Shown one piece after another: positions 40,872 through 58,194 of a stretch of 64,000 nucleotides of DNA; position 1 is the first letter of the stretch; every line of letters begins with the position of its first letter. Source of the stretch: Zymoseptoria tritici IPO323. Lineage: Eukaryota; Ascomycota; Dothideomycetes; Mycosphaerellales; Mycosphaerellaceae. The notes under the pieces were generated by a model. The model worked only from the letters and a program-made list of their open reading frames with translations. It was not told the DNA's origin and made no database searches. The DNA is taken from the NCBI RefSeq assembly GCF_000219625.1, contig NC_018203.1, positions 372,001 to 436,000 of the forward strand, written 5' to 3'. Both the position numbers and the translations under genes were made by a program.

Positions 40872-40947
40872 GACGGCCGAACAGACTGCACCTTCACGCG
40901 GTGGCCGTCGTAAGTACCTTCCTTGGAAGGGAAACTAAGACAGTCTG
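40872..40947 (+). ncRNA. HDV-like self-cleaving ribozyme, type A
   Basis: Hand folding gives all helices of the HDV fold. P1 is GACGGCC (1-7) with GGCCGTC (32-38). P2 is CAGACTG (11-17) with CAGTCTG (70-76). P3 is ACC (19-21) with GGT (29-31) around a 7-nt loop. P4 is CCTTC/GAAGG (46-50, 55-59). J4/2 is GAAACTAAGA with candidate catalytic C64. Cleavage would be just before G1, the first base of the element. P1.1 is not assigned with confidence. Confidence 0.75.
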
Positions 40948-41650
40948 GAAGAAATCTGGAAGAAACCTCCTCGAAAACCTCTCGAATCCGCCCGAAATCC
41001 TTCTCGAAATCCGCCTCGAAACACGAGCTACAACAGAACAACAGCACGATTCGAACGAATAGCCCTCTACGCTACGAACGAGAACGAGAAGAAGAAAGAA
41101 GCAGTCCACTCTGCCCTATACGCGCACCTCCTCGAAATCCGAATCGAAATCGCATATCCCTTCTCTAGAGACTTCGTCGCCCTCGAAGGAAGCATACATG
41201 CACTTTAAAGAGCTAGAACTCGGTGGAATCTACAACTCTGCGATCAACCTGCGTAGCTATATACGCTAGAAGGCGGCATATAGTTCCACAAAGGCATATT
41301 GAGGACAAGAGAAGGTAGCGAGTTGGACAGCTGCTTCTTGCGCTGCATCTCTTTCGAATTCGCAGCGTGCGTGCGTGCGAAGCGGAAGGATCCGCTGAAA
41401 ATTCTGCAAAAAGCTTGGCGCGAAAATTCTGCAGCCTTGGGCCGCAGCAACACTCGTTTGATTTCCTTTGTCTTGCATTTGTTTAAAGTCCTTTGGCATT
41501 GCCTTAGGCACGGGGTTTCCCCTAAGGTCAAAGAATACCGAAGAATTTGATTGTAAATAGATCTACTGCCTTGCCCTTAGGGCAAGGCCGTCCTACATAG
41601 TCTTGGACTCCGAAAGGACGTAAATGGAACAAACAAACAAACAAACAAAA
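40872..41650 (+). mobile_element. SINE-like retroposon 1, type A head, (ACAA)n tail
   Basis: A 779-bp insertion with normal CA/TG content inside RIP-mutated Gag sequence. It starts GACGGCCGAACAG, immediately after a 12-13 bp target duplication, and ends in ACAAACAAACAAACAAAA. Its 3' part has a 9-bp hairpin (GCCTTGCCC/GGGCAAGGC) and a small TCC-GAAA-GGA hairpin before GTAAATGGAACAAAC. No long sense-strand frame exists. A conserved antisense frame is present but is better explained as an accident of sequence conservation. It has no reverse transcriptase, so it would need a LINE partner recognising its 3' end. Confidence 0.85.
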
Positions 41651-46430: not shown

Positions 46431-47272
46431 ATGTCCCTTTTCGGTAATAATAATAATCCTTAGAATAATAACCTAGGTCCCGCCCTTACCTTCCCGCTAG
46501 CCGCTAATAACCCGCCGGCGCCTGCCCCCGCTCCTCCTCTAGCGGCTCCCGCTTAGAACTAGCCGCGTACTGTTATCTATTACGAGCTATACGCTAAAGG
46601 CGGAATCGACTATGTCCTACCGGTAGTATAAAATATATCCTACCTATTTTCCGCCGGACCCCGCTAATAAACCTAGATAGGCCGATCTCGCGCGTATATA
46701 AGCTATTACGCTAAGCGTAAGAATTACGCTAAACTATAAGTTATAGCCGGGCTCCGCGCGAAGGTCGCCGCTAACTACCTAGTCCTTAATTCGCCTATGT
46801 CGCCTACGCCCTCTAGACCCGCGTAGGTACTTAGTAGGTAGCGTAAGTATCGCCGGCCTCCGCTCGAAAACCGTTAGCTAATTAGACTATAGTAATAATG
46901 CTTATAATAGTTTAGGTACTACTCTTAAGGCTTAGAAAGCCCTAAAGCTACTATAGGTAGTAGGTTTACTCTCTATATAGGTTCTCTTATTATCTCCGAT
47001 CGAAAAGCCCTACTAACTACTTAAAACAGTCCGGTAGCCTCGGAGATTACTCGTTCTATAGAGGAGGTTGTCGCGTAGTAAGGACAAACGTAAATACTTC
47101 GCCGGTCTCCGTTTAGTATAACCCGCTAACCGCTTATTAGTCCTAGTAGCATTCCTACTACTCTCGTATTAGGTAGGCGTTACTCCTCGTAGATAGCTAC
47201 TTCCGCTCGTTCTTAGTCGGTTCCCGGTATAGAATATAGTAGTACGATTACTACTCTAAAAAGTAATTTATA
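46431..47272 (+). pseudogene. Extra antisense frame of chromovirus 2 (about 280 codons), RIP-nonsense
   Basis: From ATG 46,431 one frame runs about 280 codons, interrupted only by TAG and TAA (no TGA), as expected if CAG, CAA and TGG were mutated. It lies between the polyprotein chromodomain and the 3' LTR, on the opposite strand. It begins with an Asn run, then a Pro/Ala-rich linker (PPAPAPAPPLAAPA), then a globular-looking part (ELYAKGGIDYVLPVV, SRAYISYYAKRKNYAKL). No family recognised. It may be an accessory gene of the element or a captured host gene. The retained start codon and absence of other stop types argue that it was coding. Confidence 0.55.
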
Positions 47273-48111
47273 AAATAAAAATTCTTACGTAACCTCTCGT
47301 TCTCCTCGTATATCTAGTTACTTCTTCTCGGTAACCGCTCTCTTTTTCCTCTTCTTAATATACTTCTCTTTTAGCCTATTATTAACTTTAGTATTTCTAA
47401 ATTTTTGCTCGAAGTTATCTATAGCGATAGTATCTACTAGGTTGTCTAAGGGCTCCTACGTTAGATCGTAGTAGCTAGTCTATTTAACTAGGACCTCCCT
47501 TCCCCCTCCTCTATTCTTTAGTACTATCCTTATATATAGTAGTTCTTCTATATCCTATTCCTCGTACGACTTAATTAATACTAGATCCGGCTAGTAATCG
47601 TCGGAGACCTAGCCTAGGAGAAGGTCGTCGCTCGCTAGTCTTAGTAGATCTAAATAGAAGACCGGATAAATGTTACCGGGGATCCTAGCTAAACGGATAG
47701 AAACCGGCGATAAGACCTTATTAACCGTATACTTCGTATTCTTATAATCTAGGCTTTCCTTAGGGCGATTAGTACGATAATTCCTTAAATCTAGCTATAC
47801 CTTATCGCCCTTCCGGTATATTAGCGCCGCGGTACGCTTCCTATTAGCGGCCTCCTCCTACTTTTAGGTAGCGTCCGCTATACTTACCTAGTATAGGTCT
47901 ATAATTCCCTTTATTTTCTCTACGAACTTCGAGGCTCTCTAGGCTACGGCTAGCGTAGAGGGCTCCTCGCTATCCGGCTCTAAGGGCACGGGAGACAGGG
48001 CTTCGTATCCGTAAACTACGAAGAAGGGGCTTATTCCTAACCCCGAATAGTAATAGGCGTTTAGCGCTAATTAGGCCGTAGAGAGCTAGCGTTTCTAGTC
48101 GGACTACTCGT

Positions 48112-48125
48112 AATTAATGTAGTTC
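48112..48125. repeat. Target-site duplication of SINE-like element 2
   Basis: AATTAATGTAGTTC, repeated exactly at 48,882-48,895. Confidence 0.92.
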
Positions 48126-48881
48126 TGTTTTGTTTGTTTGTTTGTTTGTTTGTTTGTTCCATTTACGTCCTTTTGGAGTCTATAACTATGTAGGACGGCC
48201 TTGCAAGCAAGGCAGTAGATCTATTTATAATCAAATTCTTTTAGTATTCTTTGACCTTAGGGGAAACCCCGTGCCTAAGGCAATGCCAAAGGACTTTAAA
48301 CAAATGCAAGACAAAGGAAATCGAACGAGTGTCGTTGTCTGTTGTCTACAGCCAGGGCTGCAGAATTTTCGTGCTAAGCTTTTTGCAGAATTTTCAGCGG
48401 ATCCTTCCGCTTCGCACACACGCTGCGAATTCGAAAGAGATGCAGCGCAAGGCGATGTAGCGCAAAGGCGCAAAAAGCAGCTGTCCAACTCGCTGCCTTC
48501 TCTTGTCCTTAATACGCCTTTGTAGAACTATATGCCGCTTCCAAACGCATATAGCTACGCAGGTTGATCGCAGAGTTGTGGATTCCACCGACTGTTCCAG
48601 CTCTTTAAAGTGCTTCGGTTCGGATTTCGAGGAGGTGCGCGTATAGGGCAGAGTGGACTGCTTCTTTCTTCTTCTGTTTGTAGCGTAGAGGGCTATTCGT
48701 TCGAATCGTGCTGTCGTTCTGTAGCTTGTGTTTCAATAGGAGGCGTGCCTCCAGGTCGTGTTTGTAAGGGAAGAGGGATCGACGGCCTCTCCAATCCTTC
48801 GGAGGAAACTTAGCTCTACAACAACGATGTCGTTGTAGGTTCGTAGCCGGCACCACGTACAGGTGTTCCTCATCGCCGGCC
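48126..48881 (-). mobile_element. SINE-like retroposon 2, type B head
   Basis: A 756-bp non-RIPped insertion in chromovirus 2. On the minus strand it starts GGCCGGCGATGAGG directly after the 14-bp duplication and ends in (ACAA)n. Its body matches elements 1, 3 and 4 from the ACAGCACGATTCGAACGAAT region to the tail, but its first ~190 bp are unrelated to the type A head. The 3' hairpin is GCCTTGC/GCAAGGC. Confidence 0.87.
48802..48881 (-). ncRNA. HDV-like self-cleaving ribozyme, type B
   Basis: Minus-strand fold: P1 is GGCCGGC (1-7) with GCCGGCT (31-37), including the G1-U wobble seen in HDV itself. P2 is GAGGAA (11-16) with TTCCTC (75-80). P3 is ACC/GGT (18-20, 28-30) around TGTACGT. P4 is a 10-bp hairpin CTACAACGAC/GTTGTTGTAG (44-66). 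J4/2 is AGCTAAGT with candidate catalytic C69. G1 coincides with the insertion boundary. Confidence 0.82.
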
Positions 48882-51326
48882 AATTAATGTAGTTCCTTAG
48901 ATAGGCTTAGACATCCTAGTTTAGTCTCTCTAGGCCTCCGTCGGTTTAAGGGTAGTAAGCTAAGCTTAGTCGCTACTATACTCCGACTAACCGGTAGAGT
49001 GTTTTCTAGAATATACTCGTCTAGTTCGTCCCCCTATTACTCGTAATCGCGCTCGGTAGCCTATAATATCTTACCTAGTAGTCTAGGAATCTCTCGGCGT
49101 ACTCCTCTGCTTTTATACTAGGCATCGCCTCTAAAACGACGGACTTACTTAAATAGTCTTTAATAACCTATAGGTAACGGTTCCCCTTAGACTTAGGGAG
49201 GTCGGTTATAAAATCTATAGAGATCTCCTAGAAGAAGCGATTAGGAACCGGTAGAGGGCGTAGGAGTCCGTATTTATGCTCTCTCTATACCTTATTCCTT
49301 CCGTAGTAATCGTAGTTTCTTAAAAACCTCCTAATATAATATAACTATAGGGGCTAGTAGAAGTTTCTCCCTAGTATAAAGGCCGTAGAGTCCCGCCCGG
49401 GGTAGCCGTAGACTAGGGAGTTATATACGGACTAAATAATCTTAGTACGGAGTTTATCGTTTTATAGAATCTTAGTGTCCGCCGACTTATATTCGGCCTC
49501 CGACGTAACTACTACTCTAGGAACCTATAACCTACCGCGATGCCTTAAGCGGCCCTTCTCGTCAATACTATAATCTCTAATCTAGATTTTAACCTTTAGA
49601 TCCGGTAGAATAGCCCGGGATCCGTCCTTAACGGCGTAGATTACTGTCTAATACTAGGTATCCTTTTTTAAAGTCGGACCCTATAGTTTATTTAACTCGC
49701 TGTCCTAAAAGGGTCCCGCTATAGCCGCGTCCTTACTATCGGAATTCGGCTCTAAAGCTACTAGCTATATTAGTATAGCTTATAGGTAGTAGAGTTAGAT
49801 AGACGTAGCCGATAGGTTATTAGCTACTACCTCCCTTTCCCCTCCGGCCGCCGGCTAATCTAGGGCTAGATTAGGTTCTAGGAACCTCCTAAACCGTAAC
49901 ATCTTATCGTCCTCGCCTAGAGTATCCTACTCCCTACAAGAAAGTACGTCCGGTATAATCGCTTCGGTCCCCGGTCGGTATACGAGTTTAAACTAGAACA
50001 AAGTAACGGTCTTAAACTATCGAATCTGCCTCTTACTTAGCTACCTCTTCGTTATAAAGTACTCTAGGTTCTTATAGTCCGTCTAAATAGTAAAGGGACT
50101 ATAGGTCTTTAGCTCGGGTACCTAGAATTTTAGGTAGGATACTACTACTAATATCTCCTTATCGTAAATATCGTAGTTAATCTCGGCCTTATTAAGCTTC
50201 TATAAAAAGAAGCCTACTAGCTTTAGGACCCCGTTCGCTTCCTATAGGAGCGCGCCTCTAATCGCGAACCCGCTATAATCCGTCTCTAGGAACGTAGGAA
50301 GCCCCGGGTCCTAGTATATAAGTACTAGAGCCCTATAATACTTCCCCTTTAACTTCTCGAATACTTTCTCCTTAAGCTCTCCTTAGGAGAACGGCGTTCC
50401 TTTCCTAGTAAGCGCGGTTAAGGGAGCGGCGATCTTAGAGTAGTTAGGGATAAATATCCTATAGTAGTTAGTAAAACCTAGGAACCTTCGAACCTCCTTC
50501 TACGTTCGTAGTACCTTCTAGTCTTCTACTACTTAAATCTTCTTAGGGTCGGGTCCTACGCCTTTTCCGTCGGTATAAACGATAAACTCTAGGTACTTAA
50601 CGGTCTTCTATACGAAAGCGCACTTTCCTAGGTCTAGGTATAGGCCCCTATCCTAAAGGGCCCGGAGGACTATACAAACCTTCTAGTAGTAATCCTCGAG
50701 CGTACTATTGGAGTAGATAATTATATTATTACTATATACTAATATAAAGTCGTCTAAATATTCCCGTAACAAATTGTTAATAAACCGCTAGAAAGTAGCT
50801 AGTACCCCGGATAGACCGAACGGGTATACTAACTACTCGAATAGACTAAATCTAGTACGGAAGGCTGTCTTATACTCTTCGCTAGCTACTATACGAATAT
50901 AATAGAAGGCGGCTATAACGTCGACCTTCGTAAGCTATCGTAAGCCCGTAAGGTTCCTTAAGGTCTCCGGAACTAACGGGAGTAGGTACCTATTATACTT
51001 CGTTAGAGCGTTTAGCGCTCGATAGTTATAGTAGAAACGTAGTCCCCCTCCCGGTTTACGAGCGAAAAGCACCGGTACTATAGCCTCCGAGGAACTTAGC
51101 TAGATATATCCCTTTTTTAGTAGGGTATCGATAACTTTTCTTAGGACTAGGAGTTCGTCCTTAGACATACTATATAAGGGGCCCTAAGGTAATCGGGGTA
51201 GTAAACTATTAGTATTCGGCTAGAGAGCGATCTTATAGTCTAGATCCCCTCTATAAGGAGCGAGCTTATCAGCCTCCCGCGTCCTAAATAGTAGTAGTAA
51301 GTCGTAAAGCTCCGGGGGGAGCCTAC

Positions 51327-51339: not shown

Positions 51340-52139
51340 GTTTGTTTGTTTGTTTGTTTGTTTGTTCCATTTACGTCCTTTCGGAGTCCAAGACTATGTA
51401 GGACGGCTTTGCCATAAAGGCAAAGCAGTAGATCTAGTTACAATCAGATTTTTCGGTATTCTTTGACCTTAGGGGAAACCCCGTGCCTAAGGCAGGACCT
51501 GCAAGCAGAATCTGCCGAAGGACTTCAAAACAGCGCAAGACAAAGGAAATCAAACGAGTGTCGTTGTCTACAGCCGGGGCTGCAGAATTTTCGCGCTAAG
51601 CTTTTTGTAGAATTTTCAGCGGATCCTTCCGCTTCGCACACACGCTGCAAATTCGAAAGAGAGGGCAAAGGCGCCTAAAGCAGCTGTCCAGACTCGCTAT
51701 CTTCTCTTGTCCTCAATATGCCTTTGTGGTATCGTAGTAGCAGTTCTATCTACGACAACGTAGGTTGATCGTAGAGTTGTGGATTCCACCGAGTTCCAGC
51801 TCTTTAAAGTGCATGTATGCTTCCTTTCGAGGGCGACGAAGTCTCTAGAGAAGGGACATGCGATTTCGATTCGGATTTCGAGGAGGTGCGCGTATAGGGC
51901 AGAGTGGACTGCTTCTTCTTCTTCTTCTTCTTCTTCTCGTTTGTAGCGTAGAGGGCTATTCGTTCGAATCGTGCTGTTGTTCTGTTGTAGCTTGTATTTC
52001 GAGGCGGATTTCGAGAAGGATTTCGGGCGGATTTCGAGAGATTTTCGAGGAGGTTTGTTCTTCCAGACTGTCTTGGTTTCCCTTCTAAGGAAGGTACTTA
52101 CGACGGCCACCGCGTGAAGGTGCAGTCTGTTCGGCCGTC
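51340..52139 (-). mobile_element. SINE-like retroposon 3, type A head
   Basis: An 800-bp non-RIPped insertion in chromovirus 2. Its minus-strand start GACGGCCGAACAG and body are close to element 1. It carries a (CTT)n expansion at 51,914-51,936 and the 3' hairpin GCTTTGCC/GGCAAAGC, a compensated variant of the other copies. Confidence 0.87.
52064..52139 (-). ncRNA. HDV-like self-cleaving ribozyme, type A (copy 2)
   Basis: Same 76-nt fold as at 40,872. The P4 loop is CTTA instead of CTTG and J4/2 is GAAACCAAGA. P1, P2 and P3 are unchanged. Confidence 0.75.
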
Positions 52140-57446: not shown

Positions 57447-58194
57447 GTTTGTTGTTTGTTTGTTTGTTTGTTTGTTTGTTCCATTTACGTCCTTTTGGAG
57501 TCTATAACTATGTAGGACGGCCTTGCCCTAAAGGCAAGGCAGCAGATCTATTTACAATCAAAATCTTTTATATTCTTTAACCTTAGGGGAAAACCCCGTG
57601 CCTAAGGCAATGCTAAAGGACTTTAAACAAATGCAGAACAAAGGAAATTAAACGAGTGCTGCAGCCTAGGGCTGCAGAATTTTCGTGCCAAGCTTTTTGC
57701 AGAATTTTCAGCGGATCCTTCCGCTTCGCACGCACGCATGCTGCAAATTCGAAACGCAGTGCAAAAGCAGTGCAAAAGCAGCTGTCCAACTCGCTGCCTT
57801 CTCTTATCCTTAATATGCCTTTGTGGAACTGTATGCCGCTTCCAAACGCATACAGCTACGTAGGTTAATCGTAGAGTTATGGATTCCACTAACTGTTCCA
57901 GCTCTTTAAAGTGTTTCGGTTCGGATTTCGAGGAGGTGCGCGTATAGGGCAGAGTGGATTGCTTCTTCTTCTTCTTCTTGTTTGTAGCGTTTGTAGCGTA
58001 GAGGGCGTTCGAATCGTGCTGTTGTTCTGTAGCTTGTGTTTCAATAGGAGGCGTACCTCCAGGTCGTGTTGTTGTTGTAAGGGAAGAGGGATCGACAGCC
58101 TCTCCAATCCTCTAGAGGAAACTTGGCTCTGCAACGACGGTATCGTCGCAGGTTCGTAGCCGGCACCACGTACAGGTGTTCCTCGTCGCCGACC
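57447..58194 (-). mobile_element. SINE-like retroposon 4, type B head, no clear target duplication
   Basis: A 748-bp non-RIPped insertion in chromovirus 3. The minus-strand start is GGTCGGCGACGAGG and the tail is (ACAA)n with one irregular unit. Removing it restores the host frame (reading PNTVLRTILVT across the junction) with at most one duplicated base. Body and head match element 2. Confidence 0.85.
58115..58194 (-). ncRNA. HDV-like self-cleaving ribozyme, type B (copy 2)
   Basis: Same 80-nt fold as at 48,802. P1 keeps pairing through a U-G wobble (GGTCGGC with GCCGGCT). P4 is CTGCGACGAT/GTCGTTGCAG, with compensatory changes against copy 1. J4/2 is AGCCAAGT. Confidence 0.8.

Follow-up and report, generated by a model that had tools for sequence, protein, structure and literature searches.

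What sets the exact 5' end of a short, dispersed retroposon in a fungal genome? The question is raised by an element at 48881 to 48126 of a 64,000-nt stretch of Zymoseptoria tritici IPO323 DNA (NC_018203.1, positions 372,001 to 436,000), called here the window, whose first 80 nucleotides can be folded into an HDV-like ribozyme. The genome of this species comprises 39.7 Mb in 21 chromosomes, numbered in order of decreasing length, of which chromosomes 14–21 are accessory (PMC4522978, PMC4502367), and its repeat libraries hold a single SINE family (PMC4502367, PMC10652580). That the retroposon starts exactly with an HDV-like fold is very likely, and self-cleavage by this head, with a role of the cleavage in the life of the retroposon, is likely. 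The features of the locus and of related copies in the window are as follows.

48881 to 48126, minus strand: retroposon of type B, from G1 to the AAAC tail
48802..48881, minus strand: predicted type B HDV-like ribozyme, covering the opening 80 nt of the element, with G1 at 48881
48875..48881, minus strand: 5' strand of P1, GGCCGGC, whose partner is GCCGGCT at 48845-48851, with a G1-U wobble
48866..48871, minus strand: 5' strand of P2, GAGGAA, whose partner is TTCCTC at 48802-48807, forming the pseudoknot
48852..48864, minus strand: P3, ACC/GGT, closing the 7-nt L3 TGTACGT
48816..48838, minus strand: P4 hairpin of 9 pairs, one of them G-U
48808..48815, minus strand: J4/2, AGCTAAGT; its C at 48813, position 69 of the ribozyme, is the predicted catalytic residue
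48735..48801, minus strand: type-B-specific linker between the ribozyme and the body
48242..48734, minus strand: body common to type A and type B copies, with no recognised coding frame
48129..48277, minus strand: 3' region common to a LINE, 79% identity over 153 aligned columns
48126..48158, minus strand: AAAC-repeat tail
48882..48895, minus strand: 5' target site duplication (TSD) GAACTACATTAATT, 14 nt, exact
48112..48125, minus strand: 3' TSD GAACTACATTAATT, 14 nt, exact
40872..41649, plus strand: type A copy with an HDV-like head from 40872 and a 13-nt TSD
51340..52139, minus strand: type A copy with its head from 52139 and a 14-nt TSD
57452..58194, minus strand: second type B copy with its head from 58194 and no TSD above chance length

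The fold claimed for this site in the original prediction is found there, with P1, P2, P3, the 7-nt L3 and J4/2 carrying C69, all within 48802-48881. Two details are amended: P4, given as 10 bp, counts 9 pairs, and the element lies on the minus strand, which places G1 at 48881. Between P2 and P3 the type B head has an extra C (48865, minus strand), and L3 pairs with J1.1/4 to form a P1.1 of two pairs, GU/AC, found in all 22 type B copies.

The prediction that G1 is the first base after a 14-bp target duplication is borne out by the exact copies at 48112-48125 and 48882-48895, and the boundary was followed through a set of 65 distinct copies (43 of type A and 22 of type B), taken from the fetched loci and the window and each having a head, a tail and enough flank. 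TSDs of at least 12 nt, mostly 13-15 nt long, border 62 of them, against a match of at most 10 nt among 643 mismatched flank pairs; the flank matches of the remaining three are 5-7 nt, within chance, and one of these copies is L017_A, which has a nested insertion. In the 62 copies the 5' junction lies at offset 0 from G1 in 40, at +1 to +3 in 19, where bases common to the duplication and the element make the offset ambiguous, and at -1 in three. The 5' ends of 59 of 62 duplication-bearing copies are thus compatible with G1, as had been predicted. Moreover, the joined flanks with one copy of the duplication match 19 other genomic places without a break, out of 25 matches that include the window's own two flanks; since these paralogous empty sites run unbroken, the inserted unit is the sequence from G1 to the tail plus one duplication. 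The copy at 57452-58194 has a head and a tail without a TSD above chance length, perhaps owing to later recombination.

A search with the whole element returned, among 40 scored of 422 candidates, some copies that match from position 148 on only. Upstream of the common body these carry a different HDV-like head, which defines type A. Its segments are, in order, GACGGCC, GAA, CAGACTG, C, ACC, TTCACGC, GGT and GGCCGTC, followed by GTAAGTA, CCTTCC-TT-GGAAGG, GAAACTAAGA and CAGTCTG. They fold into a P1 of 7 pairs, a P2 of 7, P3, a P4 of 6 and a J4/2 with its C, and P1.1 has one of two pairs. The letters AGUA and GAA beside P4 of this head resemble those of a loop E motif. With G-U counted as a pair, 62 of the 65 copies have an intact P1, 60 an intact P2, 64 an intact P3 and 56 an intact P4, a P4 pair being broken in the other nine; the predicted catalytic C of J4/2 is kept in 65 of 65.

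The specificity of the fold was assessed with a loose and a stringent HDV descriptor, both designed after types A and B had been seen. The loose one matches the window nine times; 60 shuffled single strands yielded 37 matches, from which about 1.2 would be expected for two strands. Four of the nine coincide with the starts of the four head-bearing copies detected there, and the remaining five are at about chance level. The stringent one gives three matches in the window, every one at an element 5' end, against one in 746 shuffled strands, and misses the copy starting at 58194. Over the 65 copies it matches 47 (38 of 43 type A and 9 of 22 type B), each at offset 0, and the fetched loci, 298,683 bases in all, contain no match beyond starts resembling these copies. 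Type B accounts for 13 of its 18 misses, for which a G-U pair in P4 appears mostly to be the reason. A core pattern for a third ribozyme type matched six times, against four in a reversed control, and gave no evidence of one.

Covariance models are less favourable. At gathering thresholds Rfam yields no match, and the strict form of the check proposed with the original prediction is therefore failed: the permissive search aligns HDV-F-prausnitzii over minus-strand positions 48881 to 48809 at 15.8 bits, under a gathering threshold of 44 and with an E-value of 1.6. The permissive search with the type A head returns no HDV match. An Rfam threshold is a search criterion and not a defining chemical feature of HDV-like ribozymes. 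The other Rfam listings (snoU54, mir-124, PGK and similar) are below their own cut-offs and were set aside.

Comparison of the two heads provides a further line of evidence. The first look at the head searches covered 40 scored of 95 candidates for head B and 40 of 173 for head A, all of these scored ones counting as matches, and 21 hand-picked head variants (10 of 17 of type A and 11 of 16 of type B) were aligned. Between the types three P1 pairs differ at both sides, and 98.6% of the P1/P3 cells are paired, against 24-58% in slid versions. In 500 shuffles the percentage paired, the number of cells changed at both sides and the covariation score were never reached; 390 shuffles reached the number of pairs changed at both sides, and all 500 the number of pair types. 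Within type B, for which 13 of 16 variants were compared, the P4 pair 46-64 occurs as A-U, G-U and G-C and nothing else is telling; 9 of 500 shuffles reach the score, 353 the pairs changed at both sides and 494 the further pair types. P2 is invariant within each head type. The covariation support thus appears real but modest, and comes mostly from one contrast between A and B.

In both types the first 40 columns belong to the more constant ones of the element, with a mean share of minor letters of 0.002-0.005 in type A and 0.009-0.034 in type B, against up to 0.28 in the bodies. The constancy of the type A head is partly an artefact, because the set was partly picked by similarity to the head used as the query, and in type B the P4 and J4/2 columns (0.06-0.09) are not among the constant ones, P4 varying at least as much as parts of the body.

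The heads and the bodies do not seem to have one common history. The final body tree comprises 64 bodies and 674 columns and leaves out L017_A, whose body was misassigned because of the type B copy nested in it. The nucleotide tree, whose bootstrap had yet to stabilise, requires 12 changes of the head label, at least seven of them forced by strongly supported branches (13 and at least eight with L017_A included). Transitions outnumber transversions among the copies by 1546 to 439 in type A and by 843 to 154 in type B; when transitions are hidden, which removes RIP-type changes and leaves 41 informative columns, 15 changes are needed and at least five forced. That the A bodies and the B bodies are two old clades was rejected, since a single change is found in 0% of the bootstrap trees. 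At the same time, head labels are clustered as tightly in none of 500 shuffles, and in 23 and 13 of 500 on transversions; being more clustered than in most shuffles, the heads are partly inherited with the bodies. Recombination inside the bodies could contribute to the conflict between the trees. The element of the window appears to illustrate head exchange. It carries exactly the 80-nt head of L011; the two bodies are 12 transversions apart, and its own body shows no transversion against the type A copies L010 and L012. Two diverged HDV-like heads thus appear to have been swapped repeatedly on the same body lineages.

No coding frame was recognised in the body. The longest stop-free stretch of the window copy has 132 codons, antisense to the element, against a shuffle 95th percentile of 134. 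Among the 65 copies the longest stretches reach 252 codons (e.g. in L030, L037 and L015), exceeding their own 95th percentile in 20 copies and the maximum in nine with dinucleotide shuffles, and in 25 and eight, respectively, with plain shuffles. They lie on the element strand in 39 copies and on the opposite strand in 26, the element lengths are spread evenly over the three remainders, and three stop-free stretches gave no Pfam match over the cut-off. A coding role is accordingly regarded as unsupported and not as refuted, with an excess of stop-free length in 20 of 65 copies.

As to the class of the element, ARAGORN finds no tRNA in the window, the element matches no Pol III RNA family in Rfam, and 56 of the 65 copies contain an internal TTTT, which is expected to stop Pol III. 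The motif GATTCGAAC, present in 60 of 65 copies and resembling part of the B box consensus, is the sole hint of possible Pol III transcription. A SINE in the strict sense, with a Pol III head derived from tRNA, 5S or 7SL RNA, has little support, and SINE-like retroposon is the preferred term; of the earlier designation, the non-autonomous retroposon stands. With no recognised mobility ORF, a 3' end in common with a LINE, TSDs and a simple-repeat tail, the element has the characters by which a LINE-dependent non-autonomous retroposon would be recognised. It differs from a SIDE, both ends of which derive from the parent LINE, in having the 3' end and not the 5' end in common with the LINE, and the plan of a hybrid SIDE would fit if the head came from another parent.

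The LINE in question was traced through its endonuclease, a family search for which gave 113 matches, one of them under the cut-off. The copy on contig 2, read except for about 1.1 kb, has an open frame of 1148 codons with RVT_1 and Exo_endo_phos_2, an upstream open stretch of 390 codons with no Pfam match, the TSD AACAAATCCTAATC and an AAAC tail as in the element, to which its 3' end is 79% identical over 153 columns. When 19 further endonuclease loci were compared with it on a single strand, nine proved 97-99% identical across 3.3 kb, and the LINE family therefore looks young. Because the 3' end and the AAAC tail are common to both, this LINE is likely to be the helper that moves the element. 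Its 5' end, CATCGACATCC..., is sharp: of the 39 other scored copies (99 candidates) 38 start within query positions 17-25, and 23 exactly at 24. A search of this end with the stringent descriptor gave no HDV-like fold; the LINE seems to have its own route to a sharp 5' end and does not appear as the source of the ribozyme. As the LINE is equally sharp without a ribozyme, a sharp 5' end alone is no proof of cleavage. At locus L069 another LINE-like family is represented, whose open stretches beside the endonuclease match are different.

The reading that best accounts for these data, and one held with considerable confidence, is that the HDV-like head cuts a read-through transcript before G1 and so would give the copies their exact 5' end. 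The transcript would begin upstream of a copy, or at some promoter, and cross the element; the nested double pseudoknot of P1-P4 and P1.1 would form, C69 would catalyse the cut before G1 and, by HDV chemistry, a 5'-OH would be left on G1. The reverse transcriptase of the LINE with the common 3' end and AAAC tail would then use the released RNA as template at a nicked target and so produce the duplications of mostly 13-15 nt that are observed; this machinery is suggested by the common 3' end. Heads might be replaced by template switching onto another cleaved RNA or by DNA recombination.

A constant 5' end would likewise follow if the first 80 nt were mainly a DNA promoter starting transcription at position 1, with the ribozyme fold secondary or vestigial. 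The LINE keeps a constant 5' end without a ribozyme, and the trypanosomatid Pr77 is both a promoter and a ribozyme (PMC4035085). The A and B heads differ, however, in the sequences of P1, P2 and P4 with pairing and the C of J4/2 kept, and pairing kept despite sequence change points to an RNA structure rather than to a common DNA motif, which makes a mainly promoter function improbable. A fold that arose by chance or serves as structure only, does not cleave and is kept only because the copies have recently diverged from a few masters would agree with the low diversity within types, the weak Rfam score and the covariation measures at chance level. It is very improbable in view of the rarity of stringent matches in shuffled strands (1 in 746) against three at element 5' ends in the window, the same core in two diverged heads, and the coincidence of the predicted cleavage site with the end defined by the TSDs.

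The origin of the heads is a separate matter. They may have come from another LINE family of the same genome with an HDV-like 5' end, the element then being an ordinary hybrid SIDE, an origin compatible with cleavage before G1. R2/R1 hybrid SIDEs join the ribozyme of one element to the 3' end of another (PMC3414825), and locus L069 shows that the genome has a second LINE-like family. Yet head matches lead into the same body in 68 loci (from head and whole-element queries, with some overlap), and the search for further variants by the core pattern stayed close to its reversed control (6 against 4). This origin is accordingly held to be unlikely, a diverged LINE being a possible source of the head.

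Among the known systems, R2 and the R2/R1 hybrid SIDEs of Drosophila are rDNA-specific, are cotranscribed with 28S rRNA and have been shown to cleave (PMC3414825), and cleavage at the element 5' end is also described for the R4, L1 and RTE clades (PMC3774820). The element described here resembles the R2 and R2/R1 SIDEs in being non-autonomous, with a 5' HDV-like ribozyme and the 3' end of the mobilising LINE, and the R2/R1 hybrids also in that the ribozyme is not from the mobilising element. Unlike the latter, it is a dispersed fungal element with two swapped heads and a longer body, and no LINE with a ribozyme head was seen. The analogy to R2 drawn in the original prediction thus holds for the ribozyme at the element start and breaks down at the LINE with the common 3' end, which has none. 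The trypanosomatid NARTc, RIME and SIDER are likewise SINE-like, and their start is formed by an HDV-like ribozyme, Pr77, some 77-80 nt long, the same head being carried by their LINE (L1Tc/ingi), whereas here the 5' end of the LINE is unrelated (PMC4035085). Apparently swappable heads and a probable helper without a ribozyme set the element apart among 5'-ribozyme retroelements such as the R2 SIDEs and the trypanosomatid NARTc.

The original prediction considered the fungal occurrence unusual; HDV-like ribozymes as such are already published from fungi, and it is the retroposon context that may be new. Li and Breaker (2017) described 230 HDV variants from 26 fungal species, found that their gene associations varied, demonstrated cleavage, and credited 11 earlier fungal examples to Webb 2009 (PMC5640933); words beginning with 'transpos' or 'retrotransposon' are absent from the main text of that paper. 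All 21 aligned A and B variants share with those fungal variants the extra C between P2 and P3. Their loop E, which replaces part of P4, has a counterpart in letters only in type A, with AGTA and GAA beside P4, and type B differs in having a plain P4 and no AGTA. The cleavage-site pair is typically C-G in the variants of Li and Breaker, as against G-C in 9 of 10 type A variants (A-C in one) and G-U in 11 of 11 of type B. HDV-F-prausnitzii (RF02682), the sole Rfam HDV model to align, has a similar P3-L3 and a CUAAG J4/2; unlike the present head it is bacterial, and the type B score is far under its gathering threshold. No fungal case is named in the available portions of PMC8256844 and PMC8865084, and no report of a fungal retroposon with an HDV-like head was found among the papers listed by searches of literature mostly outside subscription journals, which is weak evidence of novelty.

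The element would extend the 5'-ribozyme plan of the R2 and trypanosome elements to a dispersed fungal retroposon, and would offer a natural case of two ribozymes swapped on one element body. It suggests a role for the fungal HDV ribozymes, which were published without one. A bolder generalisation, put forward tentatively, is that fungal HDV ribozymes are largely detachable retroposon heads traded among bodies, by which promoterless elements might ride on transcripts and be copied by a LINE without a ribozyme. How retroposons with no known promoter obtain a full-length RNA can be tested here in a fungus with a finished genome.

The repeat into which the element at 48881 to 48126 inserted (47000-48111 and 48896-49800), which has about 20 paralogues, shows strong RIP indices, with TA/AT of 2.2 and (CA+TG)/(AC+GT) of 0.07-0.10, and the values for the element, 1.15 and 1.06, are not RIP-like, as if the element had arrived later than the RIP of the flanking repeat. 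Several other copies have peculiarities of their own. In L023 a type B copy (G000:C9:18888) stands directly after CCCTAA telomere-type repeats, its duplication being at least 40 nt long and including these repeats, and in L017 (1125-2670) a type B copy with a 16-nt duplication is nested within a type A member of the family. The bodies of L004 and L007 contain variable arrays of short units, e.g. TTTTGCACTGC, and in type A copies repeats of the CTCGAAATCCGCC type are located between the head and the body.
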